Assembly (NCBI GenBank): GCA_022837185.1
Contig: JALHJD010000024.1
Location: forward strand, 1 to 19,603
DNA length: 19,603 bases
Reading direction: 5' to 3'
Source: Desulfobacteraceae bacterium
Lineage (GTDB): Bacteria; Desulfobacterota; Desulfobulbia; Desulfobulbales; Desulfobulbaceae
Shown here: positions 68 to 19,603 of the stretch, one piece after another
How the letters are laid out: the number at the start of each line of letters is the position of its first letter
Numbering within the stretch: the stretch's first letter is position 1
Program-made: the position numbers and the translations under genes
The notes under the pieces: generated by a model
Databases searched by the model: none
What the model was told of the DNA's origin: nothing
What the model saw: the letters and a program-made list of their open reading frames with translations, nothing else

Positions 68-82
68 TTTTCCTCGTCTCAA

Positions 83-111: not shown

Positions 112-153
112 GAAAAATCGTCGATCAGGGCCGACCGGAAATATCGGATTCTT

Positions 154-2349: not shown

Positions 2350-2430
2350 ATCGTCCAGAGTGTTGATCAGGGAGCAGCCGGGGCCTGGGAATTTGGCCGT
2401 CCGGCCTTTTCCTCCACCGGCAAAGCGGGC

Positions 2431-2850: not shown

Positions 2851-2901
2851 GACGTGTAAACGGAATTTCCCTTGGCTGACAGGAAGGCAATTACGCCCGG
2901 C

Positions 2902-3366: not shown

Positions 3367-3419
3367 ATTCCCGCCTTGGTCCAGTATGTTGATATCCTTG
3401 CCTTCTCCGCCGCCGTTTC

Positions 3420-4664: not shown

Positions 4665-4700
4665 CGCTTGCTTCTTTCTCCTGCCTCTCCGGCGCACGTT

Positions 4701-5363: not shown

Positions 5364-5366
5364 CGA

Positions 5367-5972: not shown

Positions 5973-7101
5973 TTGCCGCATCCCCTTTGCTGTGTATCAT
6001 TTCCATGGCTTCAGCCGCCAGCCGGGCAACGCTCGTGCGCTGGGGCCGACCCTGTTCATAAACGGTCATTTCGCTCTGATCATTCCGCAGGCCCATAATC
6101 TGGAGGGCAGCCTCGGCGGCCCGTATGCGCCCCATAAGTCGAACCACGAGCCCGCGGATTTCGGTCTTTTCATGCCCGAGAAAAGGAAGCAGGGCGTAAA
6201 AAGGCGTTTTGCGGATGAGATCGGGCCTGGTCCGCGCAATCTCCCCCAATGCCCAGATAACCTGGGCCTGTGTACTTGTATCGCCCATGAAGGAAAGCAA
6301 GTGGCGGGTGAACGCCCCGTAGATGTCGGGCCGGGCGGCAATGATGCAGCCGATGGCTTCGATCATGCCCCAGCTTGTTGCCGCCGAATCCGAACAGGCT
6401 TCAAACAGCCGGTGCATGAGGTCGGCCACCGGCCCGGGCTCGCGGCTCGACACCCTGGCGCAGACCTGGCCGATCACCCAGGCCGCCCAGTATCGGTCCG
6501 CTTCATCAGGTTCGTAGAGCAGCCGCTGCAAAAAACGCAGGGTCCTCCGATCATCAAAACAGTAGTCAACCAGCGCGTCGATGTCGCCGGCCGCCGCGAG
6601 CTCCTTTACCAGCTGCTTGTCCGCCCTCTTCTTCCGCCGTTTGGGATCGCGCCGGGGTTCAATGAGCGGTTCGCCCGCCTCCGCCCCTCCGGCGCCGGCC
6701 TCCCGCCGGTGATCGAAGCGGGCGGCGATTTCCTCCAGCTCCCGGTGCAGGCGGACAAAATAAAGAACACCCCGAACGGTTCGCCCATCCATCGTACCGG
6801 CCGGCACCACCTGATGGTTGACTTCGTCGTACCGCTCAATGCGTCCGGTGAGATAATCGTCCTCGGGAACCAGTTCCCAGGCAAGATCCCAATCGTCATG
6901 ACAGGCGGCCACCAGGCATTCGACCATGGCCGCCCCGACATTGTGTCCGGTCGCGTCACTGGCATAGACGGCGCCGCACTCGCATTTGCCGACGGGGAAT
7001 TCGGTCAGCTTCCGCTGCACGGGATTTCCCGGCCGGCCGACATCGGCTCCGCAGAACGGGCAAAAGGGTTTGACGTTATGACTTTCCCCCTGGCGCATCA
7101 T
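5965..7101 (-). CDS. Zinc-ribbon plus HEAT-repeat protein
   Basis: The 378-residue protein has three parts. An N-terminal zinc-ribbon-like segment carries FCPFCG (residues 13-18) and KCECG (about 39-43), a four-cysteine set likely to bind zinc. A mixed segment follows (about 50-130) that ends in a charged, Lys/Arg-rich linker (about 140-170). The C-terminal half (about 175-350) consists of repeated helices of HEAT type (for example YWAAWVIGQV, WGMIEAIGCIIAARPDIYG, AQVIWALGEIARTRPDL). It resembles, from memory, the DVU0298-type proteins of sulfate reducers, whose function I do not know. The start forms an ATGA overlap with the stop of the upstream TPR gene, and its own end overlaps the next TPR gene. 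Confidence 0.85.
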   Translation of the reverse strand: MMRQGESHNVKPFCPFCGADVGRPGNPVQRKLTEFPVGKCECGAVYASDATGHNVGAAMVECLVAACHDDWDLAWELVPEDDYLTGRIERYDEVNHQVVPAGTMDGRTVRGVLYFVRLHRELEEIAARFDHRREAGAGGAEAGEPLIEPRRDPKRRKKRADKQLVKELAAAGDIDALVDYCFDDRRTLRFLQRLLYEPDEADRYWAAWVIGQVCARVSSREPGPVADLMHRLFEACSDSAATSWGMIEAIGCIIAARPDIYGAFTRHLLSFMGDTSTQAQVIWALGEIARTRPDLIRKTPFYALLPFLGHEKTEIRGLVVRLMGRIRAAEAALQIMGLRNDQSEMTVYEQGRPQRTSVARLAAEAMEMIHSKGDAANE

Positions 7102-7733
7102 TGACCCATTTTTTCCTCCAGGGCCTGGGCAAAACGGGGATCAACCGAGTAGCCAAGCTCCCTGGCTTTTTCCATGTTTTCCCTGGCATCCCGGTAATCT
7201 CCCTTGAAGTAGAGCGCCACCGCCAGATTGTTCCTGGCCATGGCCGAGTCCGGGTCGATGCTCACCGCCTGCCGCGCCGCTTCCACCGCCTTGTCGTCCT
7301 CCTCCTTCATCGTATAGGCGGAAGTGAGGTTGATCCAGCCGGTGATCAGGGTGGGGACGATCTGAGTGGCCGTCACATAGGATTCAATGGCTTCATCAAT
7401 GCGGTTCTGCTGCTGCCGGATCAGGCCTATGTTGACATGGGCCTCGGCCATTTTGGGGGTGATTTTCAAGGCCCGCTGATTGAGTTCCAGGGCCTTGTCC
7501 ATTTCCCCCCGGTCAAAATAGATGGCGCCCAGATTAATCAGGCTTTCCACCGAGTTATCGTCGAGTTCCAGCGCTTTTTCCAGTTCCCGGATGGCATCAT
7601 CATTGCGACCGGCCTGCCGGTACACGAGGCCGAGATGGTGGTGCGCCATGACGTTCTCGGGTTTTTTGGCCACGATTTCTTCTAGTTCCTTGATCACTGC
7701 GGCAATATCCGCCTGACTCCTGTTTTCTGACAT
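7098..7733 (-). CDS. TPR-repeat protein of unknown function
   Basis: The 211-residue protein is composed almost wholly of five canonical TPR units (AHHHLGLVYRQAGRNDDAIRELEKALELD, then LINLGAIYFDRGEMDKALE and so on). It has no signal peptide, membrane segment or extra domain, so it is probably a cytoplasmic adaptor. It is the first gene of the unit reading into the HEAT, TPR and riboflavin genes. An AGGA ribosome-binding site lies about 10 bases upstream of ATG 7733. Its stop overlaps the start of the HEAT gene as ATGA (7098-7101). Many TPR families look alike, so no more specific name is justified. Confidence 0.88.
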   Translation of the reverse strand: MSENRSQADIAAVIKELEEIVAKKPENVMAHHHLGLVYRQAGRNDDAIRELEKALELDDNSVESLINLGAIYFDRGEMDKALELNQRALKITPKMAEAHVNIGLIRQQQNRIDEAIESYVTATQIVPTLITGWINLTSAYTMKEEDDKAVEAARQAVSIDPDSAMARNNLAVALYFKGDYRDARENMEKARELGYSVDPRFAQALEEKMGQ

Positions 7734-7755
7734 GGTATTTATCCTTTCATCTTTC

Positions 7756-7772
7756 GCAACCCAGCGGGTTGC
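7756..7772. repeat. Perfect 7-bp inverted repeat in the TPR-gene leader
   Basis: GCAACCC (7756-7762) is followed after 3 bases by its exact reverse complement GGGTTGC (7766-7772). In the minus-strand transcript this makes a compact hairpin 23 bases upstream of the TPR start codon. No T tract follows, so a terminator is unlikely; a leader hairpin or a protein site are both possible. Confidence 0.5.
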
Positions 7773-7898
7773 CGGTGTTCAGTGCATCATGCGGCCGGCG
7801 CCTCGCTCCCGATGTGCTCCGTCGGCGACACGGCACAGCAGTTCCCTGCATGGCCGTCGCACCCATGGACGGCAGCCGCATTGTGACAAGGCGATGAG

Positions 7899-7926
7899 AT
7901 TATGCTGATGGAAAAGTACCTAACAA
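7899..7926 (-). promoter_or_regulatory. Candidate promoter of the TPR-HEAT-TPR-rib unit
   Basis: On the minus strand a -35 TTGTTA (7921-7926) precedes, after 16 bases, a -10 CATAAT (7899-7904). The start would be near 7892, giving a leader of about 160 bases before the TPR gene. The -35 lies inside the inverted repeat at 7916-7935, suggesting that a regulator or a hairpin could act here. Confidence 0.4.
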
Positions 7927-7935
7927 TATAGGTAC
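7909..7935 (-). terminator. Inverted repeat: ribF terminator or operator
   Basis: GTACCTA (7916-7922) and TAGGTAC (7929-7935) are perfect inverted arms around a 6-base loop. Read from ribF (minus strand), the hairpin is followed at once by UUUU, which fits a weak intrinsic terminator about 45 bases after the ribF stop. The same repeat covers the -35 of the candidate downstream promoter, which fits an operator. The sequence alone does not choose. Confidence 0.4.
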
Positions 7936-7978
7936 AAACCACAATGAGGCAAGAGGAAATTTCACCCCCGCGCCCAGC

Positions 7979-8950
7979 TCACCGGCTGAAGCTCTCCTCA
8001 CAGGAAAGCAGCAGCTCCTTCTGGGCCGACTCGAGAACCTCCCGGGCCGCCTCGATATCCTTCAGTATCTGGGCCGCCAGTGCCTCGGGACCGCTGAATT
8101 TTTTCTCCTCGCGCAGATGCTGCAGAAGGTTGATCCTGATGGGCTTGCCGTAGATATCGTCATGGAAATCAAAAATATGCGTCTCGGCGACCAGCCTGTT
8201 GTCCCCGAAAGTGGGATTATACCCTATGTTGGACACCCCGCCGTAACACTTGCCGTCGTAGATGACCTGGGTGACGTACACGCCCCGTCTGGGACACAGG
8301 TCCTCCTCCGATATCCGCAGGTTCGCCGTGGGAAAGCCGACCACTCCGCCGCCCCGCTGTTTCCCGCGCTGCACCTCGCCCCTGATCTGATAATACCGTC
8401 CGAGCAATTTGCGCACCTCCCCCATCCTCCCCTCGGCCACAAGCTCCCTGATCCTGGTGCTGCTGACCAGCATCCCTTCCGTATAAAAGGCGTCGACGAC
8501 CGTCACCGGAAAGCCCCTTTCCCTGCCTTTGGCCCGGAGGAAGTCTATATTGCCCTGCCGCCCCCTGCCGAAGGCGTAATCGTATCCCACCACCAGTTCC
8601 CTGACTCCGATCCGGCGGATAAGTATCTCTTCCACGAACTCATCGGCACCGGTTGCGGCGAATTCCAGATCAAAGGGGATGATGACAAGAACATCGATGC
8701 CGGCCTTCTGGATGAGTTCGATCTTCTGTTCGGTGGTGGAAATGAGACGGATGGCCCCCGGATGCAGCACCTTGAGGGGATGGGGGTCAAAGGTGACAAC
8801 AACGCTGGTGCCGCCGATCCGGCCGGCTCTGCTGACAACCTCCCGGAACAGCTGCTGGTGACCGAGATGCACGCCGTCGAAATTGCCGATCGTCACACAG
8901 GCGCGAAAAAACGGGGTGCTGATAGCCTCAATGGTGGTGTACAGTTTCAT
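7979..8950 (-). CDS. ribF: Bifunctional riboflavin kinase / FMN adenylyltransferase
   Basis: RibF phosphorylates riboflavin to FMN and adenylates FMN to FAD. The N-terminal nucleotidyltransferase domain shows GNFDGVHLGH (residues 22-31, with the HxGH nucleotide-binding signature) and later SSTRIRELVAEG. The C-terminal kinase domain shows GFPTANL, RGVYVTQV, SNIGYNPTF and ETHIFDF. The 323-residue length is typical. I chose ATG 8950 (MKLYTT) because an AAGGA ribosome-binding site lies just upstream; ATG 8971 would add 7 residues and lacks one. It is separated from the other rib genes by three repeat-protein genes and probably forms its own unit. The tRNA-Leu promoter sits just upstream on the other strand. 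Confidence 0.96.
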   Translation of the reverse strand: MKLYTTIEAISTPFFRACVTIGNFDGVHLGHQQLFREVVSRAGRIGGTSVVVTFDPHPLKVLHPGAIRLISTTEQKIELIQKAGIDVLVIIPFDLEFAATGADEFVEEILIRRIGVRELVVGYDYAFGRGRQGNIDFLRAKGRERGFPVTVVDAFYTEGMLVSSTRIRELVAEGRMGEVRKLLGRYYQIRGEVQRGKQRGGGVVGFPTANLRISEEDLCPRRGVYVTQVIYDGKCYGGVSNIGYNPTFGDNRLVAETHIFDFHDDIYGKPIRINLLQHLREEKKFSGPEALAAQILKDIEAAREVLESAQKELLLSCEESFSR

Positions 8951-8990
8951 GATCCTTGTCTTTTTTTCCATTCAAACACCAAAGAAGTGC

Positions 8991-9019
8991 TTGACAAAAC
9001 CGGGTTTGACGAGCATATT
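8991..9019 (+). promoter_or_regulatory. Promoter of tRNA-Leu
   Basis: A perfect -35 TTGACA (8991-8996), a 17-base spacer and a -10 CATATT (9014-9019) lie just before the tRNA. Transcription would start near 9026, about 7 bases before the mature 5' end. It overlaps the leader region of the divergent ribF. Confidence 0.6.
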
Positions 9020-9032
9020 TCCACCCGATCGT

Positions 9033-9119
9033 GCCGAAGTGGCGGAATTGGTAGACGCGCTAGGTTCAGGGTCTAGTGGGGGTATCTCCGTGGGAGTTCG
9101 ACTCTCCCCTTCGGCACCA
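9033..9119 (+). tRNA. tRNA-Leu (anticodon CAG)
   Basis: The acceptor stem pairs GCCGAAG (9033-9039) with CTTCGGC (9109-9115), followed by discriminator A and an encoded CCA (9117-9119). The anticodon arm is CTAGG / TCTAG, closed by a G-U pair, around loop TTCAGGG, with anticodon CAG at 9067-9069. A long variable arm follows, as expected for a class II tRNA, and the T arm is GGGAG-TTCGACT-CTCCC. The 87-base length fits tRNA-Leu. It stands alone, transcribed away from ribF and towards the MFS gene. Confidence 0.97.
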
Positions 9120-9341
9120 TCAAATCTTTCCTGCTGCTTCCCGCCCGTTCCCTTTTTCTGCATTCCGCTCTCTCTCCCGCACCCGTCGATGTTGTTTCCA
9201 GTAAAACGGAAATAATACTCTTTTGCGTTGAAAATGCCAAGCAATCTCCCTGCCTCAAGAAATTGTCCCCGATGTCCTGGACCGGAGTCAGGGCGAAGTC
9301 CGAGGGGGAAGACAGGATCCCCTGCCGGACCGGAACCCCGC

Positions 9342-10565
9342 TCACCCCCTTTTCGGCACCTTCAGTCTCGAGGAGACGGCCACTGCGGTGAGGGTCAGCA
9401 CGGCGGCCATGATAAACGCCCCGGCAAAACTGCCTGTTTTCTCGGCCATGATCCCGGCGACATAGGGTCCGGCTATCTGGCCGAGTCCGAAAATAAAGGT
9501 GATCAGGCCGAACACCCGCACCGTGTTCTGCGCCCCGACCAGGTCGCCGACCAGGGCGATCATTATCGAGGGGATGCTCCAGGCAACGACCCCGAAACAG
9601 CCGATGGACAGGGCCAGAGCCGCGCCCTCGAGCCGCAGGCCAACCAGAAGGTAGGCAACGGTCTGCATCGAGAAGACAATCATCAGCCCCCCCCGGCGGC
9701 CGATCCTGTCCGACAGGGTGCCGAAAACCGGGCCGGAAAGCAGACTGAGCAGGCCGACCGCCGACCAGAACGTACCGGCCACCTGTTCGGAAAAGTTGTA
9801 TTCCTGGACAAGGACCGTCACGATAAAGGTCGCATAGATAACATAGGTAAAGCCGAAGATAAAATAGATGACCCCGCAGAGATAAATGGCCTTCCGGTCC
9901 AGCGGCAGGAATATCCGCCGCGGCGGTTCGGATGGTCCGGGGGCCCGATCACCGACTTTGCCCAGACCGAGCTCCTGAGGCCGATCCCGCAGGACAAGCC
10001 AGCAGATGATGGAAATCACGAAAACCGTGCCGGCGAGGACAAACCAGCTCAGGCGCCAGCCGTCCGGACGCAGCGCATTGAGCTGCGGAACAATCTGGCC
10101 TGAAAGAAGAATGGCGAAGCCGCTGCCGATGACGACAAACCCAGCAGCCCTGCCCCGCAGCCGGCTGTTGAACCAGGCCGTCACCAGACCCATCATCGAC
10201 ACATTGGCGGCGCCGCTGCCGATGCCGGTCAGGGCATAGAGCAGGGCAACGACCGGAAAACTCCGGGCTGCCCCGATCAGGGCGGTGGAAACACCAACCA
10301 GGACCAGAGCGGCGAAAATAAGTTTCCGTGCGCCGCAGCGGGCCTGCACCCCGCCGCTGACCAGGACGGCGGCCAGATAGCCCAGGAAATTGCAGGTGCT
10401 GATCAGACCCATCTGGGAATAGCTGAGATGCAGCGCTTCCCCCATGGCCGGGAGAAGCATGCCGATGGCGAACCTCCCCAGGCCGAGGCAGGCAAAAATG
10501 CAGAGACAGCCGACGGCCGCCACCATCCAGCCGTAATGCATTCGTGTTCCCGGCAGTTTCTTCAT
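9342..10565 (-). CDS. MFS transporter, YbfB/YjiJ-like
   Basis: The 407-residue protein has about twelve hydrophobic segments in two groups of six, separated by a charged loop near residues 200-225, the layout of the major facilitator superfamily. The first helix segment LGLGRFAIGMLLPAM resembles the GRFAxxPLLP motif of YbfB/YjiJ-type members. A loop after helix 8 carries SDRIGRRGG, the usual MFS motif-A form. The substrate cannot be read from the sequence. It starts at ATG 10565 with a G-rich ribosome-binding stretch directly upstream and appears monocistronic, divergent from the rhomboid gene. Confidence 0.9.
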   Translation of the reverse strand: MKKLPGTRMHYGWMVAAVGCLCIFACLGLGRFAIGMLLPAMGEALHLSYSQMGLISTCNFLGYLAAVLVSGGVQARCGARKLIFAALVLVGVSTALIGAARSFPVVALLYALTGIGSGAANVSMMGLVTAWFNSRLRGRAAGFVVIGSGFAILLSGQIVPQLNALRPDGWRLSWFVLAGTVFVISIICWLVLRDRPQELGLGKVGDRAPGPSEPPRRIFLPLDRKAIYLCGVIYFIFGFTYVIYATFIVTVLVQEYNFSEQVAGTFWSAVGLLSLLSGPVFGTLSDRIGRRGGLMIVFSMQTVAYLLVGLRLEGAALALSIGCFGVVAWSIPSIMIALVGDLVGAQNTVRVFGLITFIFGLGQIAGPYVAGIMAEKTGSFAGAFIMAAVLTLTAVAVSSRLKVPKRG

Positions 10566-10637
10566 TCACCCCCCTGACCGCGTGACAGCGTGTTTCCCCG
10601 CCGGAACCATGGCGCCGCTCCGGCGAAAAGCTGCGCC

Positions 10638-10646
10638 ATCATACCA
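10638..10646 (-). promoter_or_regulatory. Extended -10 promoter of the MFS gene
   Basis: The minus strand reads TG-G-TATGAT (10638-10646), an extended -10 element about 75 bases upstream of the MFS start; the -35 is poor. It abuts the -35 of the divergent rhomboid promoter. Confidence 0.33.
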
Positions 10647-10674
10647 TTGCCATTCGCGGAATCGTACTTAAAAT
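10647..10674 (+). promoter_or_regulatory. Candidate promoter of the rhomboid gene
   Basis: TTGCCA (10647-10652), a 16-base spacer and TAAAAT (10669-10674) form a good sigma70-type match. The start would be near 10681, which favours the ATG at 10760 as the rhomboid start over the TTG at 10685. Confidence 0.42.
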
Positions 10675-10759
10675 TTCAACTGGTTTGCTGTATCGCGACT
10701 CCTTTTTCCTCCAATCTCTGCCGTCCGGAACCCATGTCCAGACCAAGCGCTCCATTCAC

Positions 10760-11674
10760 ATGCCGCCCCGCAACGTAATCCTTTCCCCGGACGTGACCGG
10801 CAGGGATCCCAATCCGATTATCGCCGCCGGCTCCCCCGATTATCTGGCCCTCTGCTCACTGGTGTTGAGTTCCGTGGGCATACCCCATGCGTACAGCCCC
10901 CGCGGCGACGGCCTGACGGTTGACGAAGAATTCGCCGAGGCGGCCCGGCACCATCTTGAACAGTACTTCGAGGAAAACGAGGGCTGGCCGGAACGCCCGC
11001 CCCCTTATCAGCCGGCCCGCTTCTCCTCCAATCCTCCAACCCTTCTGATAATCGGCGCCCTGGCCCTGTTCTTCTGGGTGACCGGCCCCTGGCAGGATAA
11101 CGTTGCCTGGTTTTCCCGCGGGGCCATCGACAGCAGGGCCATTCTGGAGCAGGGCGAATGGTGGCGGCTGGTAACCGCCCTCACCCTGCATGCGGACCAG
11201 GCCCATCTCATCGGCAACTGCATCATCGGCGGCTTCATCGTTCACCTGCTCGGCAAAACCACGGGCTACGGGCTTTCGCTGCTGCTGCTCGTCGCCTGCG
11301 GATCGCTGGGCAACCTGCTGAACATCATCACCCGCGACGAGGCCCATCTCTCGGTCGGCTTTTCCACCTCGATCTTTGCCGCCATCGGGCTCCTCAGCGG
11401 GATGCAGATTTTTGCCGGCCCCCTGAAAGGGTTCAAAAACCTGCTGATTCCCCTGGGCGCCGGAGCGGCCCTGCTGGCCATGCTCGGCGCCGGAGGCGAA
11501 CGGACGGACCTCGGCGCCCATTTCTTCGGCTTTCTCTGCGGCATCGGCATCGGCATGCTGATCAGGCATTTCGACCTGGTCCGGCTGGCCAGCCGGCCTG
11601 GCCGGCAGTTGAGCCTGTTCACCCTTGCCCTGCTGTTCATCATTGTCAGCTGGGAGATGGCCCTCGGACCGTAA
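10760..11674 (+). CDS. Rhomboid-family intramembrane serine protease
   Basis: Rhomboids cut membrane proteins within or near the bilayer. From ATG 10760 the protein has 304 residues. A soluble N-terminal part (about 1-80, LALCSLVLSSVGIPHAY...VDEEFAEAARHHLEQY) resembles the small DUF2007-like domain often attached to rhomboids. Six or more membrane helices follow. Catalytic-site residues are visible: H144, H149 and N153 in HADQAHLIGN, serine 202 in GFSTS, and H254 in LGAHFFG. The glycine usual after the serine (GxSG) is replaced by threonine. TTG 10685 would extend the protein by 25 residues but would sit almost on the predicted transcription start; neither start has a clear ribosome-binding site. 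hflK and hflC follow on the same strand after 122 bases, suggesting a shared membrane-quality-control role. Confidence 0.9.
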   Translation: MPPRNVILSPDVTGRDPNPIIAAGSPDYLALCSLVLSSVGIPHAYSPRGDGLTVDEEFAEAARHHLEQYFEENEGWPERPPPYQPARFSSNPPTLLIIGALALFFWVTGPWQDNVAWFSRGAIDSRAILEQGEWWRLVTALTLHADQAHLIGNCIIGGFIVHLLGKTTGYGLSLLLLVACGSLGNLLNIITRDEAHLSVGFSTSIFAAIGLLSGMQIFAGPLKGFKNLLIPLGAGAALLAMLGAGGERTDLGAHFFGFLCGIGIGMLIRHFDLVRLASRPGRQLSLFTLALLFIIVSWEMALGP

Positions 11675-11699
11675 ACCGTTCCCAATGCGCAAAAAAATA

Positions 11700-11727
11700 T
11701 TGCAAAGCACCGCTTTTACAGTATGCT
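11700..11727 (+). promoter_or_regulatory. Weak candidate promoter for hflKC
   Basis: TTGCAA (11700-11705), 16 bases, TATGCT (11722-11727). Each box matches four of six consensus bases. The gap between the rhomboid gene and hflK is AT-rich compared with its surroundings, as promoters often are. Confidence 0.28.
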
Positions 11728-11796
11728 TAAGAACCCGTATCAAGACAAGCCGTTTCAAGAAGTTTTCCTTATTCAATCTCCACTTCAGAGCGAATA

Positions 11797-12912
11797 ATGC
11801 CCATGAATGACCAGCAGTCCCCCTGGGGACAGAAAAAAAAGCCATCCTCACCCGAAGATATCATTGCCGCCATCATCCAGAAGATCCGCGACAGTTTCAG
11901 CGGTCATGACGGCGGCTCCGAGCCGCCTCCATCCGGAGAGGGCAGGCAGCCCCGCAGCCCCCAGAACCCCTTTGCCGGCATCGGCAAGATCGCGGTAATC
12001 GTCGTTGCGGTGCTGCTGCTCCAGGTCGTCTACACTTCGTTTTATACCATTGAGCCCGGTGAGGTCGGGGTCGTCCTGCGGTTCGGGAAATACCATCGGA
12101 CCACCTCCTCCGGTCTGCATTTCAAAATTCCCTACCTGGAGGATCTCAACAAGGTAAACATCGAGGCGGTCAGGAAAGAGGAGTTCGGCTTCCGTACCCG
12201 CTCGCCGGGACAGCAGGTTTTGATTGACCGGAAAGGCTTTGAGGTGGAATCACTGATGCTGACCGGTGACAAGAACGTCATCAACGTTGCCTGGATTGTT
12301 CAGTATATCATCAGTGATCCGGTCGACTTCCTGTTCAAGGTCAAGAATGTGCCTCAGTCCGTCCGCGACGCATCGGAAATGGTGACGAGGCGGATTGTCG
12401 GCAACATGGACTTTGACTACGTGCTCAGCAACCGTGAAATCCTGGCTTCGGACGCCAAAATGGAACTGCAGGCCGAACTGGACAAGCTGGAGAGCGGGGT
12501 CAGAATAGTGGCCCTGCAGATGCAGGACATCAATCCGCCCGATCCGGTCAAGCCGGCCTTCAACGAGGTCAACGAGGCCGATCAGGACATGAAGCGCCTG
12601 GTCAACGAAGCCGAGGAAACGTACAACAGGATTATCCCCAAGGCCAGGGGTGACGCAAAGAAAATCATCGAGGAGGCACACGGCTACGCGGTTGAGCGGG
12701 TCAACCGGGCCAAGGGCGAGACCGCCCGCTTCAACTCCATCGTCGCCGAATACCTCAATGCCGAGGAAGTCACCCGGCGAAGGATGTACCTTGAAGCGAT
12801 GCAGGATATTCTGCCGAATGTCGAACGGGTCTACGTCATGAACAAGGACCAGCAGACCCTGCTGCCCTTTCTCAACCTGACCCAGGACCAGAAGATTCAG
12901 GAAAAACCCTGA
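11797..12912 (+). CDS. hflK: FtsH-associated membrane protein HflK
   Basis: HflK is a type II membrane protein of the SPFH/prohibitin family that with HflC forms a large cage around the FtsH protease and modulates its activity. The 371-residue protein starts with the family-typical short cytoplasmic segment (SPWGQKKKP, then a Pro/Gly-rich stretch to about 58). One membrane helix follows (about 63-85), then the SPFH domain with IEPGEVGVVLRFGKYH and GLHFKIPY, and a helical coiled region rich in A/E/K/R (about 260-330). ATG 11797 is used; ATG 11803 (MNDQQSPWG) is an equally plausible start. hflC follows after 59 bases. Confidence 0.96.
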   Translation: MPMNDQQSPWGQKKKPSSPEDIIAAIIQKIRDSFSGHDGGSEPPPSGEGRQPRSPQNPFAGIGKIAVIVVAVLLLQVVYTSFYTIEPGEVGVVLRFGKYHRTTSSGLHFKIPYLEDLNKVNIEAVRKEEFGFRTRSPGQQVLIDRKGFEVESLMLTGDKNVINVAWIVQYIISDPVDFLFKVKNVPQSVRDASEMVTRRIVGNMDFDYVLSNREILASDAKMELQAELDKLESGVRIVALQMQDINPPDPVKPAFNEVNEADQDMKRLVNEAEETYNRIIPKARGDAKKIIEEAHGYAVERVNRAKGETARFNSIVAEYLNAEEVTRRRMYLEAMQDILPNVERVYVMNKDQQTLLPFLNLTQDQKIQEKP

Positions 12913-12971
12913 GGCACCGCTGAAGGACAACCTCCATCAATATTGATCCGAACGGAAAGGTTCCAGAGCCC

Positions 12972-13928
12972 ATGAAAAAAATTATTCAGATAGTACTGCT
13001 CATTATCGTTGTCGCCTTGACCATCACGGTCTGGGACGGATTTTTTATCCTGGATGAGGGGCAGCAGGCGGTCGTCACCCAGTTCGGCCGCCCGGTTGGC
13101 GGGTCCCTGACGGAAGCCGGGTTGAAGTTCAAAACCCCCTTCATTCAGAAAGTTAACTTTTTTGAAAAGAAAATACTGATCTGGGACGGGGAACCGAACC
13201 AGATCCCCACCAATGACAAGACCTACATCTATCTTGACACCACCGCCCGCTGGCGGATTACCGATGCCCTGCGCTTCATGCAGGCGGTCGGCACCGAAAC
13301 CCGGGCCATGAGCCTGCTCGCCGATATTATCGACGGCACGGTCCGTGACATGGTGAACAAGAACAACCTGATCGAAATTATCCGTTCCTCGGACTGGTCC
13401 CCTGAGTTCATGGTGTCCGTCACGGCAAGCGGTGAACTGGTTCATCCACCGGAACTGGGCAGGGATAAAATCAGCGAGCTGATACAGCAGTCAGCCTCCA
13501 GGGTCACCCCCCAGTACGGAATCGAGTTGTTGGGCGTCATGTTCAAGCGGGCCAACTATATCGACACGGTCAGGGAAAGGGTTTATGACCGGATGATCTC
13601 TGAGCGCAAAAGAATCGCGGCGGAGAAAAGATCATTGGGCGAAGGGAGCAAGGCGGAGATTCTCGGCCGGGTTGAACGGGAATTCAAGGAGATCACCTCC
13701 GGGGCCCAGATGGAAGCCCTGACCATCGAGGGCAAGGCCGATGCCGAGGCGACCAGGATTTACGGGGAAACCTACAGCCGCCATCCGGAATTCTACTCCT
13801 TCCAGAAGAGCCTGGAAAGCTACCGCAACATCATCGCCGGCAACACCTCCCTCATTCTCACCTCGGATTCCGACCTGTTCCAGTATCTTGAGGAAATCAA
13901 GGGAGTACGGAAAGAGGCTACTCAATAA
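12972..13928 (+). CDS. hflC: FtsH-associated membrane protein HflC
   Basis: HflC is the partner of HflK in the FtsH-regulating periplasmic-side complex. The 318-residue protein has an N-terminal membrane helix (about 3-24), the SPFH motif LDEGQQAVVTQFGRPV, the RWRI segment, and the characteristic ERKRIAAEKRSLGEG...KADAEATRIYGETYSRHPEFYSF coiled region. Length and order are those of standard hflKC pairs; no ftsH is in the window. Its last 11 bases overlap the end of the convergent cysteine-rich gene, so there is no room for a terminator between them. Confidence 0.96.
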   Translation: MKKIIQIVLLIIVVALTITVWDGFFILDEGQQAVVTQFGRPVGGSLTEAGLKFKTPFIQKVNFFEKKILIWDGEPNQIPTNDKTYIYLDTTARWRITDALRFMQAVGTETRAMSLLADIIDGTVRDMVNKNNLIEIIRSSDWSPEFMVSVTASGELVHPPELGRDKISELIQQSASRVTPQYGIELLGVMFKRANYIDTVRERVYDRMISERKRIAAEKRSLGEGSKAEILGRVEREFKEITSGAQMEALTIEGKADAEATRIYGETYSRHPEFYSFQKSLESYRNIIAGNTSLILTSDSDLFQYLEEIKGVRKEATQ

Positions 13929-14589
13929 GCACCCCGGGTCCCTCGTCGGGATAAGCCGGCCGCTGCTCGGGTGAATAGGGAATCCGGCCCCTCCGGTCGA
14001 GAATTTCCTCGAAGCGGATAATATCCTCTTCCGAGGAAAGGCTTTCCGCCCCTAACTGGTCATAGCGGCAGCTGCAGTACACCAGTTGGCCGCCGCACCA
14101 GGGGCACAGTTCCACCGGGCATCCCAGCTCGTGCAGCTCACCGGTGGCGGCATGGCAGCCCGGGCAGATATCCCGGTCGCTGTCAAGGGGTTCGTAGATG
14201 CCGAAACGTTCAGCCGACCTGCTTTGCTCGCGAAACGTGTCCCTGCTTCCATAACCGAAAAAATCAAGGATATCCCTGTCCCACAGCCCTTCGGCCAGTA
14301 TCCCCTGAAATTCAATCCCTTCGCTGGAGACCAGGTAGACATAACTGTTCACCGGGGTGACGGCGGCCAGCAGAAACATGCCCTGCCGGCGGCCGATCAA
14401 CCGTATCTCCCGCACCCAGTCACTGCCGGCCTCGGGCAGATAACTGTAAAATTCATGCAGCAGTTCCAGGGCGATGGCATCGTTGCGGTAGATATCCAGC
14501 AGGTCCTCGGCCTCTTCCATCCATCCCTCCGGGACCGCGTATTCCATCAGGTCCCTGATGGACCGTCTTTTCTCTGTATAATCATACAT
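13918..14589 (-). CDS. Cysteine-rich putative zinc-binding protein
   Basis: I do not recognise a named family for this 223-residue soluble protein. Residues 1-135 form an acidic mixed alpha/beta region with no known motif. Residues 140-176 carry ICPGCH, HELGCPVELCPWCGG and YCSC: cysteines 142, 145, 157, 162, 165, 172 and 174 and histidines 146 and 153, enough for one or two zinc sites. Similar HELGC-x4-CPxCGGQ tails occur in many uncharacterised bacterial proteins (recalled, not searched). The start overlaps the thiE stop by 8 bases, so the two are probably co-translated. The 3' end overlaps hflC by 11 bases in convergent orientation. Confidence 0.82.
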   Translation of the reverse strand: MYDYTEKRRSIRDLMEYAVPEGWMEEAEDLLDIYRNDAIALELLHEFYSYLPEAGSDWVREIRLIGRRQGMFLLAAVTPVNSYVYLVSSEGIEFQGILAEGLWDRDILDFFGYGSRDTFREQSRSAERFGIYEPLDSDRDICPGCHAATGELHELGCPVELCPWCGGQLVYCSCRYDQLGAESLSSEEDIIRFEEILDRRGRIPYSPEQRPAYPDEGPGVLIE

Positions 14590-15286
14590 CGTTTTTTCTC
14601 CGGGCCCGGGTAATGGTTCGGACCCACCGGGCTGTTTCCCCCGCGATATCGGCGGCCCTCGTCAGGGCGGTGACCACGGCGATACGCCGGGCGCCGAGGG
14701 CGGCCAGCTCCTCGATGTGCTCCGGTTTGATCCCCCCCATCACGGTGAAGGGGAGGGAGAGGTGGGCCGAAAACCGTCGTATGCTTTCCGGACCGATAAA
14801 CTCCGTCAGACCATCCTTGGTCCGGGTAGGATAAAGGGGGCCGATGTTGTAATAGGAAACCGCCGGCCCCAGCTCCCGTTCCAGGCGGGCGATCTGCCGC
14901 GCCTGCTCCTCCCGGTTGCAGGAAATGCCTATCAGCATGTCGGGGGCGAGCCGGGCGATTTCCCAGGGCGGCAGGTCCTGCTGGCCGACGTGGACGCCGT
15001 CGGCATCGGCGAGCAGAGCAATATCCACCCGATCGTTGACCACGAAGAGCGCACCCGCCACCAGGGTTTTGCGTCTGAAATACCGTGCCTTCTCCAGCAG
15101 CACCCGATCGGTTGAAGACTTGTCCCTGAGCTGGACAATCTTTGCCCCTCCCCGCAACACCTCGTCCAGCCAGAACATGTCGGTACGGCCTTCGGCCAGC
15201 CGTTCACAGGAAACGGGATACACCGAGACCTCATCGGTGAACCGTTTCAGCCGCTGGCGGTACACTTCGCTTCTTTCTGCCTGCAT
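14582..15286 (-). CDS. thiE: Thiamine phosphate synthase
   Basis: ThiE joins HMP-pyrophosphate and thiazole phosphate to form thiamine phosphate. The 234-residue protein is a TIM-barrel type, with GGAKIVQLRDK (diphosphate binding), FVVNDRVDIALLADADGVHVGQ, GISC, YYNIGPLYPTRTKDG and the phosphate loop VMGGIKPEH. It has an N-terminal extension of about 20 residues before the first strand, so a later start is possible. No other thiamine genes are in the window. No TPP riboswitch is evident: the predicted leader is only about 70 bases. The cysteine-rich gene follows with an 8-base overlap. Confidence 0.94.
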   Translation of the reverse strand: MQAERSEVYRQRLKRFTDEVSVYPVSCERLAEGRTDMFWLDEVLRGGAKIVQLRDKSSTDRVLLEKARYFRRKTLVAGALFVVNDRVDIALLADADGVHVGQQDLPPWEIARLAPDMLIGISCNREEQARQIARLERELGPAVSYYNIGPLYPTRTKDGLTEFIGPESIRRFSAHLSLPFTVMGGIKPEHIEELAALGARRIAVVTALTRAADIAGETARWVRTITRARRKNDV

Positions 15287-15341
15287 CGCTCCCTGCCGGC
15301 CGTCCGGCCTGTCTCCGGCCAGCGCCCTTGAACCAGCCGTC

Positions 15342-15370
15342 TTGAATTATTCATCAGAAAATATTATAGT
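15342..15370 (+). promoter_or_regulatory. Candidate citrate synthase promoter
   Basis: TTGAAT (15342-15347), a 17-base spacer and TATAGT (15365-15370). The predicted start near 15377 leaves a leader of about 220 bases. The -10 overlaps the -10 of the opposite thiE promoter. Confidence 0.48.
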
Positions 15371-15391
15371 ACTGTTTTGGGTTGCTGTCAC
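15363..15391 (-). promoter_or_regulatory. Candidate thiE promoter
   Basis: On the minus strand GTGACA (15386-15391), a 17-base spacer and a perfect TATAAT (15363-15368) point to a start near 15356, about 70 bases before the thiE start. This is one of the best promoter matches in the window. Confidence 0.6.
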
Positions 15392-15431
15392 CAAAAGTAA
15401 CCATACCCCTCGAGCCGGTTCACACCGCATG

Positions 15432-15452
15432 GCCGGTCCCGCTCGGACCGGC
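15432..15452 (+). repeat. Perfect 8-bp hairpin in the citrate synthase leader
   Basis: GCCGGTCC (15432-15439) and GGACCGGC (15445-15452) flank a 5-base loop. The stem is GC-rich and stable, with no T tract on either strand, so a simple terminator is unlikely. It could be an RNA leader structure or a protein-binding palindrome. Confidence 0.55.
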
Positions 15453-15595
15453 ACCCGGAAATCCTTATGTTTTCGAAGAGGCACGCCGCTGCCCGGATTC
15501 TCCGGTTCACGGACACCTGGATCAAACGCCGGCATCTTGACAAATAAAAACCGGGCCGACACGAACCAAGTGCCGGCCAACAGGAGGTACCTGCC

Positions 15596-16897
15596 ATGAC
15601 ATACACGACAACTGCATCCGCCGCGGAACTCAAGATCAACGGCAAGACCTATCACCTGCCCCTGGTAGAAGGCACCATGGGTGATAAGGCCATCGACATC
15701 TCAAACCTGCTGCGGGAAACAGGGTACATTACCCTGGACTCCGGCTACAAAAACACCGGTTCCTGCACCAGTTCCGTCACCTACCTCGACGGCAGGGGAG
15801 GGATTCTCCGCTATCGCGGCTACGATATCGAGGACCTGGCCAAAAACTGCCTGTTCGTCGAGGTCGCCTATCTGCTCCTGCACGGCAAGCTTCCCAATGC
15901 CGCGGAACTGGAAGCATTCAAACAGCTCATCGGCCGCTTCGCCCTCATCCACGAGGACATGATTCATTTTTTTGACCACTTCCCCTCCCATGCCTCGCCG
16001 ATGTCCATACTCTCCGTCATGGTGAACAGCCTCTGCAATTTTTATCCCGAGATGAGCGCGAATCCCCTTGAGGATTTTGATGAAACATCGACCAGGCTGA
16101 TTTCAAAAATCAGGACCATCGCCGCCTTTTCCTACAAAAAATCCATTGGCCATCCCCTGGTCTACCCGCGGCATGATCTGTGCTACTGCGGCAACTTTCT
16201 CCACATGATGTTCGACAAACCCGTCCGCCCTTACACCGTGCGGCCGGAAATAGTGACCGCCCTCAACAAGCTGCTGATCCTGCATGCCGATCACGAGCAG
16301 AACTGTTCGACCTCGACCGTCAGGCTCGTGGGCAGCGCGGGCGTGAACATCTACGCCGCCATTGCCGCCGGCATCAACGCCCTGTGGGGCCCGCTCCACG
16401 GCGGGGCGAATGAAGCGGTGCTCGACATGCTGGAGACCATTTACGCCGATGACAGCAACTTCGAGAAGTACATCAACAAGGCCAAGGACAGAAACGATCC
16501 CTTCAGGCTGACCGGCTTCGGCCATCGGGTGTACAAAACCTACGATCCCCGGGCCAAGATAATCAAAAAGGCCTGCGACGAGATCCTCAGGGTCCTGAAC
16601 GTCTCCGACCCCCTGCTTGACATTGCCTACAAACTGGAAGAGATAGCCCTGCACGATGAATACTTCATCGAGCGCAATCTCTATCCGAACGTCGATTTCT
16701 ACAGCGGGATCATTTACAGGGCGCTGGGCATCCCGAGCAACATGTTCACCGTCATGTTCGCCTTGGGCAGGCTGCCCGGCTGGATTGCCCAGTGGAAGGA
16801 AATGCACGAGGATCCGGCCACCAGGATAGGGCGACCGCGGCAGGTGTATATCGGCGAACCGGCCCGCAAGTTCATCCCCCTTGCGGAACGGCCATAG
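15596..16897 (+). CDS. gltA: Citrate synthase
   Basis: Citrate synthase condenses acetyl-CoA with oxaloacetate at the entry of the citric acid cycle. The 433-residue protein matches the bacterial hexameric type in length and order. It has LDGRGGILRYRGYDIEDLA near residues 64-82, and the active-site residues H233 (LHADHEQN), H268 (GPLHGGANE) and D367 (PNVDFYSG), plus FGHRVYK around 308-314. A near-perfect AGGAGGT lies 7 bases before ATG 15596, so high expression is expected. It stands alone, divergent from thiE and convergent with the actin-like gene. Whether it runs oxidatively or in a biosynthetic role cannot be read here. Confidence 0.97.
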   Translation: MTYTTTASAAELKINGKTYHLPLVEGTMGDKAIDISNLLRETGYITLDSGYKNTGSCTSSVTYLDGRGGILRYRGYDIEDLAKNCLFVEVAYLLLHGKLPNAAELEAFKQLIGRFALIHEDMIHFFDHFPSHASPMSILSVMVNSLCNFYPEMSANPLEDFDETSTRLISKIRTIAAFSYKKSIGHPLVYPRHDLCYCGNFLHMMFDKPVRPYTVRPEIVTALNKLLILHADHEQNCSTSTVRLVGSAGVNIYAAIAAGINALWGPLHGGANEAVLDMLETIYADDSNFEKYINKAKDRNDPFRLTGFGHRVYKTYDPRAKIIKKACDEILRVLNVSDPLLDIAYKLEEIALHDEYFIERNLYPNVDFYSGIIYRALGIPSNMFTVMFALGRLPGWIAQWKEMHEDPATRIGRPRQVYIGEPARKFIPLAERP

Positions 16898-16911
16898 CGG
16901 AAACCTCTCTC

Positions 16912-16940
16912 CCGGAGCCGCGGCCGTTCCGGTTCTCCGG
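16912..16940. terminator. Possible hairpin between convergent genes
   Basis: CCGGAG (16912-16917) and CTCCGG (16935-16940) can pair around a 17-base GC-rich loop in the 78-base gap between citrate synthase and the actin-like gene. There is no T tract, so this is only a weak candidate for a shared stop signal. Confidence 0.22.
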
Positions 16941-16975
16941 CGGCAGACGGGAGCGGGAAGGCCGGCTGGGCCTAA

Positions 16976-18010
16976 CTAAACCTCCGTCCAGTAATCTTCC
17001 GGCATGTCCATGGCCAGGGATAGGGCACCATTGGCCCCGCAGAACAGCGGGTCCTCGACAACCTCCACCTTGGCCTTGCCGTATTCACTGAGCACGTTTT
17101 CGAGGTACTTGTCGATGCCGCGGATCTGACTCCCGCCGCCGGCCAGGATAATGTTCTGACGGATAACATCCTGGTATTCCGGGTCGAATTTGGCGATCAA
17201 TTCCAGGGTGGTTTCCACGATGGCCGGCAGGATGCTTTCGCAGGCCCTTCGCATCTCCTCGGTAACATCATGTTTGGTCGGCCTGCCGTCGACCGGGATG
17301 TTGACCTTGACGGCCCGCTCCGGATCGCCGATGAAACTGAACTCCTCCTTGAAGCGGCGAACCATGTTCAGGTTGAAATCCGAGTGGGGGTAACGCTCCG
17401 CCATAAAATTGTACAGCTGTTGATCGATATAGTCCCCGGCCTGCAGCACGGTCCGCTGATCCTCATCCGTCGGCACGGTCCCGTGCATGATACAGAAATC
17501 GATGGTCCCGGCGCCGATGTCGATGACCATGGCATTGTCCAGGGCATTGACGCCGTAGGCGATGGCAAAAGGTTCGGAGACAACGAGCAGGGATTCGGCG
17601 AAATCGGAAACCGCCTTCCTGATGGCCACCTTGTTGACCTTGAAGGATTCAGCCGGCACCCCCACCACCGCCCGGACCTTGGAATTATCCTTTTTGGGCT
17701 TGACCAGGGTGATCAGGTGATGGATCAGTTCCTTGACCGCCTCCTCGTCCCGGGTCGTCCCTTCCTTGATGACCCCGTTTTTGAGGGGACGGTACAGGTC
17801 GAGGGAAAGACGGTGTTCCAGGGCATCCTTGCCGAAAAGAACAGAGTTGCCCACCACTTTCCTGGCGATGAAATCCTTCGGCCAGCCGACATAGCTGTCA
17901 ACCCACATGCTCTTGCCATTGCTTGCGGAAATGGCGCTCCTTGACGTCCCCAGATCGATTCCGACGATCAACTTCTCATCAGCTTCTTTTGCCTCGGACT
18001 TTTTGGTCAT
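16976..18010 (-). CDS. MamK-like bacterial actin
   Basis: The 344-residue protein is an actin-fold ATPase whose whole sequence resembles MamK, the filament that organises magnetosomes in magnetotactic bacteria. It shows the phosphate-1 loop GIDLGTSRSA (17-26), phosphate-2 loop DIGAGTIDFC (164-173) and adenosine loop LAGGGSQIRG (289-298). MamK-type stretches include VGWPKDFIARKVVG, SLDLYRPLKNGVIKEG, VVSEPFAIAYG and the C-terminal MPEDYWTEV. Glu146 (SEPF) and Asp164 match residues tied to ATPase and filament turnover in MamK. MreB is a less good fit. I chose ATG 18010 because AGGAG lies just upstream; ATG 18049 would add 13 residues. The start lies 32 bases inside the end of the amidase gene. 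No mam genes are nearby, so a magnetosome role is not supported; a cytoskeletal role is inferred. Confidence 0.88.
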   Translation of the reverse strand: MTKKSEAKEADEKLIVGIDLGTSRSAISASNGKSMWVDSYVGWPKDFIARKVVGNSVLFGKDALEHRLSLDLYRPLKNGVIKEGTTRDEEAVKELIHHLITLVKPKKDNSKVRAVVGVPAESFKVNKVAIRKAVSDFAESLLVVSEPFAIAYGVNALDNAMVIDIGAGTIDFCIMHGTVPTDEDQRTVLQAGDYIDQQLYNFMAERYPHSDFNLNMVRRFKEEFSFIGDPERAVKVNIPVDGRPTKHDVTEEMRRACESILPAIVETTLELIAKFDPEYQDVIRQNIILAGGGSQIRGIDKYLENVLSEYGKAKVEVVEDPLFCGANGALSLAMDMPEDYWTEV

Positions 18011-19154
18011 TCTCCTCTCCTTTGACGACTTGCAGATTTCTTCTGGCAAGATAGCGGCTTGTGCCTTCGGCGATAAAAGAAGTTATTTCTTCGCGGTAGG
18101 CGGGCAGATTCAGCTTCAGCTCCTCCTGCTTCTTGCTGATGCATGAAATCTCCACCAGCACGCTCGGCGCATCGACGCCGAGCAAGACAGCAAACGGGGC
18201 GATCTTTATTCCGGCATCGGAAGTATCCTTATCATACTTTTTGACGTTCGTGAAGAGACTATGTTGAATGGCGGCCGCCAGACTTGCCGATTCCTGCTCC
18301 TTGAACGTGTTGCCGATCTTCCTGATCATGTTTGCAAAATCCCTGGTCAGAATGCCGGAACCCTTGTTTTCCTGTTCGGCGATGCGCAGGGTCTCCGCGT
18401 CGGAGGGCGGACCGTAATAGTAGGTTTCAATGACATTGGCCCGTTTCTGCGGCAGGGCGTTGACGTGGAGGGAAATGAACAGGTCCGTGCGGCCGGAATT
18501 GGCAAATTCGACCCGTTCCGCCAGGGACATGGTGCTGTCCCCCTCACGGGTCAGAACGACATTATACCTGCCGCTCTCCATGAGCTTGTCCCGCAGCCGG
18601 TGGGCGAGGTCGAGGACGATGTCCTTTTCCTTGGTGCCCAGAACCCCGATTGCTCCGGGGTCCACCCCCCCGTGGCCCGGGTCGATGACGATTGTCTGGA
18701 CGTCAAGGCCGAAAACCGAACTCAGCCGCACCATGTCGTTGTTGAGAATAAGGCTGTAGTCAAGCAGCCGGTCTGTGTTGAAGTCCTGGGGCAGGGAATC
18801 GTACGGCCGCATGACGTACGATGCCTGCGGGACCGGAAATGATAGGTTCGCGGACGGCAGCGAGGCGGAAGTATAGGCCGGGGCCATCGAAACGGGGGAT
18901 GCGGTGGCGGAGGCAACGGCAGCCGGTTCCCCGCTGGCGTCCGGCCCCATGGAGGGGAAGAATCTGACAAACAGGACGGTCACGGCCAGAACCAAAAGTA
19001 CTGAAAACACAAGCGCGGTCCGGCGCCCCTCCCTCCCCTTTCTGCCGGACGCCGGGTCCGGGCGGGGACTGTTTATGCGGAGGTTTTCGTTGTACACGCC
19101 ACGCAGGATTGTGCTTTTCAATCGCACGTTGTCGGCGGCATTACGGGGTGTCAT
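17979..19154 (-). CDS. N-acetylmuramoyl-L-alanine amidase, AmiC-like
   Basis: This zinc enzyme cuts the bond between MurNAc and the stem peptide in peptidoglycan, usually during daughter-cell separation. The 391-residue protein has a basic N-terminal segment, a membrane anchor or uncleaved signal (about 46-66), an Ala/Ser/Pro-rich linker (about 70-115), and an Amidase_3 domain (about 153-370). Zinc ligands H161 (DPGHGG), E176 (KEKD) and H230 (SLHVNA) and catalytic E335 (LVEISCIS) are present. The insert around 275-310 (IRKIGNTFKEQESASLAAAIQ) corresponds to the helical block that in AmiB/AmiC-type enzymes keeps the site closed until an activator such as EnvC or NlpD acts. No AMIN domain is seen. 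It shares a transcript with the MamK-like gene. ATG 19154 is used; the ribosome-binding site is not strong. Confidence 0.94.
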   Translation of the reverse strand: MTPRNAADNVRLKSTILRGVYNENLRINSPRPDPASGRKGREGRRTALVFSVLLVLAVTVLFVRFFPSMGPDASGEPAAVASATASPVSMAPAYTSASLPSANLSFPVPQASYVMRPYDSLPQDFNTDRLLDYSLILNNDMVRLSSVFGLDVQTIVIDPGHGGVDPGAIGVLGTKEKDIVLDLAHRLRDKLMESGRYNVVLTREGDSTMSLAERVEFANSGRTDLFISLHVNALPQKRANVIETYYYGPPSDAETLRIAEQENKGSGILTRDFANMIRKIGNTFKEQESASLAAAIQHSLFTNVKKYDKDTSDAGIKIAPFAVLLGVDAPSVLVEISCISKKQEELKLNLPAYREEITSFIAEGTSRYLARRNLQVVKGEENDQKVRGKRS

Positions 19155-19328
19155 TGGCGGCAGCTTCCCATCCTGTCAGGATACGTCAATTCCGTCGGTC
19201 ACTTCGGCACAGGCACGCACAAAAGCCTTATTTCCAAATTAAAACAATAAATTACATGTTTGCGCCGCCACCGTTCCCGGGGCGGCCAGCGGGGTATCTT
19301 TGGGGATAATTCCCAATTAACTCAGAGT

Positions 19329-19357
19329 ATTATATGTGGCACAAGGTGGACTGTCAA
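19329..19357 (-). promoter_or_regulatory. Perfect-consensus sigma70 promoter upstream of the amidase/actin unit
   Basis: On the minus strand TTGACA (19352-19357), exactly 17 bases, then TATAAT (19329-19334). Both boxes are perfect. The start near 19322 leaves about 168 bases before the amidase ATG; this leader has no recognised riboswitch or RNA gene. Confidence 0.72.
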
Positions 19358-19419
19358 CCCGATCTTCTCACGAAGAGCAGGGGGAACGGGCGTGACGGCA
19401 GAAGCGGCAGGGGGCGGAC

Positions 19420-19439
19420 AAAAAAATGCTGACCGCATC
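19420..19439 (-). terminator. Weak terminator after the PilZ-like gene
   Basis: In minus-strand RNA a short hairpin (AUGC, 5-base loop, GCAU) overlaps the stop codon and runs into a U7 tract (19420-19426). The stem is short. Confidence 0.33.
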
Positions 19440-19603
19440 AGGCCCCGGCAACCGCACTGCGGGTGATGAAATAATCAAGCCGGGTTTTCTGCTGCTGGTT
19501 CAACTCCCCGAACTGGAGACCGAGACACTTGACCCGGAGGGAGGAGAAAGGAGTTTTGGGATGATTGTTGGCGATGCTCACCAGACGGACCGGAATGTCC
19601 TGC
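19438..19603 (-). CDS. 3' end of a probable PilZ-domain protein (partial)
   Basis: The last 54 codons of a minus-strand gene enter from the right edge and end at TGA 19438-19440. The tail (LVSIANNHPKTPFSSLRVKCLGLQFGELNQQQKTRLDYFI) has the LGLQFGxLxxxxxxRLxxFI pattern typical of the last strand and helix of PilZ domains, which bind cyclic di-GMP. The RxxxR and D/NxSxxG binding motifs would lie outside the window, so c-di-GMP binding cannot be judged. A downstream terminator and a new strong promoter separate it from the amidase. Confidence 0.55.
   Translation of the reverse strand, partial: QDIPVRLVSIANNHPKTPFSSLRVKCLGLQFGELNQQQKTRLDYFITRSAVAGA

Follow-up and report, generated by a model that had tools for sequence, protein, structure and literature searches.

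A MamK-Family Actin and a Dedicated, Predicted Bitopic Amidase Form a Conserved Gene Pair in Desulfobulbaceae and Other Bacteria

Actins direct several processes in bacteria: MreB acts on wall synthesis, FtsA on division, ParM on plasmids, and MamK on magnetosomes. Here, we report a MamK-family actin gene and its operon partner, a gene for a dedicated cell wall amidase, in a Desulfobacteraceae bacterium (GTDB family Desulfobulbaceae; GenBank assembly GCA_022837185.1, contig JALHJD010000024.1, positions 1 to 19,603; this whole stretch of 19,603 nucleotides is called the window). The pair points to a route by which an actin filament might direct wall cutting in bacteria with no detected magnetosome genes. 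We put at roughly 60% the probability that the two proteins make up a dedicated module that places wall cutting, in which the tail of the amidase docks on the actin filament. If so, wall hydrolysis would be an added, directly coupled actin cargo, and the module an actin counterpart to a bactofilin-endopeptidase module. With its short conserved tail, the amidase lends itself to a direct test of the idea with a peptide. No description of a MamK-amidase pair was found in the open-licence literature searched.

The actin gene (minus strand, ATG at 18010, stop at 16976 to 16978) encodes 344 amino acids and is single copy in its metagenome-assembled genome (MAG; 88.9% complete, 7.5% contaminated, 535 contigs). 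An earlier reading of the letters alone, referred to here as the sequence-only reading, had called the protein MamK-like along its full length, and profile scores bore this out (440.3 bits against NCBIfam MamK model NF040964 [cut-off, 400], residues 14 to 344). The same protein scored 231.5 bits against the BeeR model NF053558 (cut-off, 530) and 102.6 and 89.9 bits against two MreB models (cut-offs, 293 and 365.75, respectively), so it was assigned to neither of these families; membership of MreB or Hsp70 was rejected on profile scores. Chains of AMB-1 MamK were its top structural relatives (308 bits over residues 9 to 343). The C-terminal MPEDYW segment and the ATPase residue equivalents that had been claimed were both present, E146 and D164 aligning with E143 and D161 of AMB-1 MamK, which we take to be the published ATPase residues. 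By score, fold, and these residues, the protein belongs to the MamK family in the sequence sense. Fifty positions were conserved at 94% or more in both 34 amidase-linked actins and a co-aligned magnetosome set; a list of residues specific to the amidase-linked actins held six positions without clear meaning. Model NF040964 passes its cut-off for actins without magnetosome context, and therefore the label "MamK family" alone is not evidence of magnetosomes.

The sequence-only reading named both neighbours correctly (Amidase_3 upstream on the same strand; citrate synthase, the next gene downstream, on the other strand) but overlooked that the amidase is a conserved partner. The window amidase scored 151.2 bits against Pfam PF01520 and, with its His/Glu/His/Glu active site, is an Amidase_3 N-acetylmuramoyl-L-alanine amidase; its 3' end overlaps the actin frame by 32 nucleotides, and a ribosome-binding-like AAAGGAGAGGAGA stands immediately 5' of the actin ATG. 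A scan of named genomes supplied the best-scoring 80 loci of at least 466 matches, 81 loci with the window. At first scan, an Amidase_3 homologue lay directly upstream of the actin on the same strand in 79 of the 81, and it did so in 80 once the amidase of L080, masked by an overlap filter, was included; L100 (Chromatiales; low-coverage contig, 1.5) was the only locus without an amidase domain. Because the frames overlap by 32 nucleotides in the window and the amidase is directly upstream in 80/81 loci, it is an operon partner of the actin. The two frames overlapped in 69 of 79 loci and were separated by gaps of ≤41 bp in 8 and 284 to 300 bp in 2, counts that use the first in-frame start codon and can overstate overlap.

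Phylum labels of the loci, as given in record titles, were Nitrospirota (23), Thermodesulfobacteriota (22), Pseudomonadota (12), Rhodothermota (7), "Myxococcota" (4), "Bacteroidota" (3), Aminicenantes (3), Acidobacteriota (2), Rokuibacteriota (1), and Schekmaniibacteriota (1), with 2 loci carrying no label. We count about seven phyla plus Aminicenantes, leaving out "Myxococcota", at least partly an artefact of the old "Deltaproteobacteria" title, and the doubtful "Bacteroidota" (old "Bacteroidetes" titles), of which L107 and L108 resemble Rhodothermales loci; Rokuibacteriota and Schekmaniibacteriota are represented by one MAG each, with misbinning possible.

Among 73 genomes of the window's family, 22 carried the actin at 73 to 100% identity, with one copy truncated where its contig stops, and the same 22 carried the dedicated amidase, adjoining the actin on the same contig each time; neither was detected in the remaining 51 (thresholds, 1e-30 and 1e-52; Fisher's test, 3.9e-19, uncorrected for kinship). 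Genome G009 held a motif-bearing amidase fragment at a contig end, below threshold, with no such actin found there, and the MamK-like actin of G378 (38%) was of a different kind and lacked such an amidase. In a sample of 57 genomes of the order, the window's included, genomes lacking the pair mostly had only a longer amidase aligning from about residue 140, and four showed no amidase match. Across 297 genomes of the phylum, two had the pair, actin and amidase together in both, and the other 11 genomes with an actin match carried MamK-like actins of 34 to 50% identity. The 73- and 297-genome samples overlap the named loci (e.g., G004/L031 and G242/L066) and so are not independent of the 80; their joint absences are information beyond those loci. 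Conservation of the locus and co-occurrence together ruled out a chance neighbourhood.

The linked amidases shared a cytoplasmic-type tail, a single hydrophobic helix, and a variable linker, and a structure model of the window amidase placed helices at residues 6 to 28 and 41 to 65, disorder over most of 66 to 150, and the amidase fold at 152 to 372. The protein is thus predicted to be bitopic, with a short cytoplasmic tail bearing the helix motif ILRGVYEDNLRI, one transmembrane helix, and a disordered linker. H161, E176, H230, and E335, presumably the zinc/catalytic residues by comparison with known amidases, were invariant in 78 to 79 of 78 to 79 aligned linked amidases; enzyme activity is therefore probably kept. 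Coordinates are given in Table 1.

TABLE 1 Features of the actin-amidase locus, in window coordinates
Feature	Position	Strand	Basis or remark
Dedicated, predicted bitopic N-acetylmuramoyl-L-alanine amidase (Amidase_3), 391 amino acids	17979..19154	minus	Pfam, locus comparison
Codons of the cytoplasmic motif I16-I27 (ILRGVYNENLRI) conserved among the amidases; lies in predicted helix 6-28 and is the proposed docking peptide for the actin	19074..19109	minus	
Predicted transmembrane helix, amidase residues 41-65	18960..19034	minus	
Amidase catalytic domain, residues 152-372	18039..18701	minus	H161, E176, H230, E335 invariant
MamK-family actin of the amidase-linked clade, 344 amino acids	16976..18010	minus	ORF (open reading frame), profile scores, alignment, trees
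Actin start codon and Shine-Dalgarno-like sequence, inside amidase coding sequence	18008..18023	minus	
Consensus-perfect sigma-70-type promoter-like site, TTGACA-17-TATAAT, 12/12, upstream of amidase	19329..19357	minus	pattern match only

A strict motif pattern matched 71 of 79 called amidases (consensus, K/R-x-A-I-L-R/K-G-V-Y-E-D/E-N-L-R-I). As it demands Asn, the 71/71 Asn that it returned holds by construction, and counts were taken from a plain alignment of the 79 amidases instead, with Leu17 in 71/74 and Asn24 in 75/75. Among 28 aligned amidases, no position ahead of the catalytic region other than Leu17 and Asn24 was invariant, and columns beyond the motif dropped to about 0.6 to 1.7 bits. 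With a profile built from the 71, 76 of 81 loci showed the motif upstream of the actin; the profile missed L077, L091, L098, and L102, where contigs end inside the amidase, and L105; at L055, the motif stood in another frame of a frameshifted amidase gene. As a DNA pattern searched over the 57 genomes, the motif gave 19 matches in 17 genomes (reversed control, 1), of which 14 were linked amidases and one was the amidase fragment at the contig end (G009:C106); the pattern missed two linked amidases, in G018 and G031. The matches in G015:C262 (stop codons nearby), G009:C179, G023:C403, and G050:C92 were rejected as motif clients and look like chance, and this search found no second motif-bearing client in the window's genome. 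The amidase of a Roseithermus (L097:8813-9988) has two tandem copies of the cytoplasmic motif.

From these features, we infer that the actin would polymerise on the inner face of the cytoplasmic membrane and that the amidase, spanning the membrane once, would dock on the filament through its N-terminal cytoplasmic helix. On its flexible linker, the periplasmic amidase domain could then trim stem peptides of peptidoglycan along filaments, the likeliest places being division sites or other zones of remodelling. The general cell-architecture role that the sequence-only reading offered for the actin is likely.

Several points weigh against this proposal. No interaction, filament, or phenotype data on the pair were found, and the amidase model is of only moderate confidence (mean predicted local distance difference test score, 73.5). 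The motif's hydrophobic moment, 0.483 against a shuffle mean of 0.317, was equalled or exceeded by 16% of shuffles, and the motif may have a part in folding, in membrane insertion, or in contact with another partner; if the pair spread horizontally, this could account for some of the conservation of the tail. In L105, the deepest member, the motif is degenerate and was missed by the profile, and L100 has the motif without an amidase domain. The 80 loci were themselves chosen by similarity, and the more distant MamK-like actins of L196, L197, and L200 (46 to 50% identical) have other neighbours and no amidase.

In a looser arrangement, which we judge rather unlikely, coupled expression would serve one process (division, cell separation, or envelope remodelling) with no contact between the proteins; the actin would organise something else, and the motif would bind FtsA, FtsZ, or the like or merely tune membrane insertion. 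Conservation of an operon speaks for shared function, not contact, the amphipathicity of the motif was not significant, and its partner is only proposed. Against this, the dedicated amidase occurred only with the actin in the family genomes, bar the G009 contig-end fragment, and FtsA and FtsZ are general proteins. L100, too, still has a motif-bearing frame before its actin in place of the amidase, a short ORF (L100:4166-4456); a different frame of this interval encodes a transmembrane-like stretch.

Docking of the amidase on the filament, the reading we prefer, gains a further element in Nitrospirota. There, a third gene, of a type that combines a receiver domain, a transmembrane segment, and a SPOR domain, followed the actin in 19 of 23 loci (ten Pfam-checked). 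One gene family stood directly after the actin on the same strand in 14 loci, each member with a hydrophobic helix after the receiver region, and Pfam found receiver and SPOR in the five members scanned (L057, L069, L073, L083, and L092). Both domains were also found in L056, L059, L071, L089, and L094 (SPOR match partial in L094); the hydrophobic helix was computed for the 14-locus family alone. L053 had receiver plus PilZ in place of receiver plus SPOR. The arrangement at L057:11055-12305 and 18 other Nitrospirota loci is a seemingly unusual domain combination. SPOR domains, according to the part of the source drawn on here, bind glycan strands stripped of stem peptides, which are made by amidases and enriched at the septum (PMC6895207), and a wall-remodelling role of the module is therefore supported. 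In most Nitrospirota loci, the third protein might add a cytoplasmic signal input and a sensor of the amidase product.

Information could also flow inward, the amidase regulating actin assembly as a sensor of the wall or as an anchor. The filament would then be a cytoskeletal or partition device with a main cargo other than the wall. This would fit magnetosome MamK, which positions cargo, the related MamK-like actins in the order that adjoin a small gene with a hydrophobic start instead, and L100, which seems to keep motif and transmembrane-like stretch with no amidase domain. The invariance of the four predicted zinc/catalytic residues and the Nitrospirota SPOR partner, which points to amidase-processed wall, argue the other way, and we hold it quite improbable.

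The trees held the window actin and those of 33 of the 80 named loci, L202 being added in two. In four of five careful trees, the amidase-linked actins formed one side of a branch (support, 99/94, 100/97, 100/96, and 100/98), with labelled magnetosome sequences outside, so the actin did not group within magnetosome MamK; a quick tree gave the same group with support 91. The adjoining clade was MamK of deep-branching magnetotactic bacteria (joint support, 98/100, 96/79, 98/89, and 96/86), beyond which stood two MamK-like actins without amidase, with alphaproteobacterial MamK further off. The grouping was recovered both with and without MreB in the four supporting trees. In the fifth, which held MreB and two very long L201 rows, the group needs two changes and the root falls inside it. 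The long-branch rows BeeR, L161_10676, and P0175 were dropped from the careful trees, as were L201_5777 from tree 100/97 and both L201 rows and L202 from trees 100/96 and 100/98. L165, the actin of magnetotactic G044, fell outside the deep-branching MamK group in tree 100/97.

These trees bear on the suggestion of the sequence-only reading that the protein might be an ancestor of the magnetosome actin: the clade lies beside deep-branching MamK, and ancestry may or may not apply, the root against MreB being unstable. As a tentative extension, the pair may belong to an actin-based hydrolase-positioning system spread over about seven phyla, with the deep-branching magnetosome actin a relative whose cargo switched from wall hydrolase to organelle. 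The non-magnetic neighbour clade is useful for tracing the origin of the magnetosome actin.

Magnetosome genes were sought in the 57 genomes with three markers, magnetochrome, MamB, and MamQ. Magnetochrome exceeded its cut-off only in G040 and G044 (one match in congener G004 reached 21.2 against 30.4 bits). MamB scored 375 bits in G044 and 239 in G040, against 139.6 in the window's genome, ≤139.4 in six congeners, and ≤149 (G031) in the 16 genomes with window-type actin, levels like those of ordinary cation transporters. MamQ gave 80.9 bits in the window's genome, 109.7 in G040, and 169.5 in G044, none above the cut-off of 250, and is a poor separator, as unrelated genomes reach 98 bits. None of the three exceeded its cut-off in the 16 actin-bearing genomes. 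In G040, a magnetochrome protein above the Pfam cut-off and the best NCBIfam matches to MamI, MamQ, and MamB (each below cut-off) lay on the contig of its own MamK; because G040 shows one, a magnetosome cluster is detectable in the order, and G040 itself lies under the MamB and MamQ cut-offs.

The claim that this MamK-family actin lies outside any magnetosome cluster thus held for the clusters detectable with these markers. A magnetosome island elsewhere in the 88.9% complete MAG was rejected, all three markers being below cut-off there and likewise in six congeners. "Remnant", the other term proposed, did not fit: all seven genomes of the genus carry the actin without internal stops, with its own partner and no marker above cut-off. 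A true magnetosome MamK, displaced or left behind after loss of an island, would explain the score above the MamK cut-off and the neighbouring clade of deep-branching magnetotactic bacteria, and with no marker above cut-off in the window's genome or six congeners, and an own clade with an own partner gene in several phyla, we regard it as barely credible.

That the protein is an elongasome actin of the MreB type, or takes the place of MreB, is equally hard to credit. The protein resembles MreB over its full length but weakly, far below both cut-offs, and 12 of the 16 actin-bearing genomes in the 57-genome sample have a separate MreB-grade gene (26 to 30% identical); the four in which none was seen (G000, G013, G026, and G033) are 74 to 89% complete. 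In three congeners (G001:C60, G002:C66, and G006:C22), the contig of the actin also holds, 11 to 13 kb away, an MreB-grade gene of 27 to 29% identity; on the amidase side, the contig of the window does not extend that far.

Among known systems, the closest by architecture is BacA-LmdC, in which, in the portion of the paper used, a bitopic M23 endopeptidase has a cytoplasmic tail by which a bactofilin recruits it, with overlapping genes (PMC10945521). The actin-amidase pair shares overlapping filament and hydrolase genes, a short conserved cytoplasmic N-terminal tail, a bitopic topology (here predicted), and adjacency across many phyla, and may work analogously. It is not a true BacA-LmdC pair, since it joins an actin, not a bactofilin, to a zinc amidase of the Amidase_3 family, not an M23 endopeptidase; the tail is a predicted helix here and a beta-hairpin there, and binding here is a proposal. 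Compared with MamK (AMB-1 structures 5ljv/5ljw), the window actin falls in a separate clade and is linked to a membrane amidase, not to a magnetosome cluster, with no magnetosome marker above cut-off. Like AmiA/AmiC (8c2o and 4bin), the amidase has an Amidase_3 catalytic domain (aligned over residues 153 to 370); unlike them, it is predicted to have a membrane anchor and a cytoplasmic tail with the motif, and these two match none of its residues before 153.

Two relatives of MamK outside magnetosomes, Bbp and BeeR, are already known, with no amidase partner mentioned in the parts of the sources consulted. Bbp (big bacteria protein) is a non-magnetosome MamK-like actin of Desulfobulbales and Gammaproteobacteria and, like the window actin, stands outside magnetosome clusters; in "Ca. 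Electrothrix gigas", it occurs with a hypothetical and a Kelch-like gene, and the sections concerned name no amidase (PMC10580974). The window lacks this three-gene cluster and has the amidase partner and opposite-strand citrate synthase instead. BeeR (8r2n), 25 to 30% identical to MamK, comes from Verrucomicrobiota, and its authors assign it no function in the passages seen (PMC11929497). One family genome encodes a 38% identical MamK-like actin near a leucine-rich-repeat gene (L204:5145-6152), possibly of Bbp type; L204 and P0234, unverified Bbp candidates, fall outside the amidase-linked clade.

Further neighbours of the pair, named from one scanned member per cluster, were taxon bound: PilZ in 6 Desulfobulbaceae-type loci, ScpA in 6 Nitrospirota loci, and DHFR plus thymidylate synthase in 5 Rhodothermales/Bacteroidota loci. 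A 223-amino-acid protein at window positions 13918 to 14589, for which neither Pfam nor NCBIfam gave a match under the thresholds applied, keeps the same position in 7 loci. Other MamK-like actins of the same order (L160, L163, L166, L167, and L168) stand beside a small gene with a hydrophobic start (at L167, 162 amino acids with no Pfam match), and no mam genes were seen in the stretches around them; L163 comes from G040, whose magnetosome cluster lies elsewhere in its genome. L160, L166, and L167 also have a second actin.
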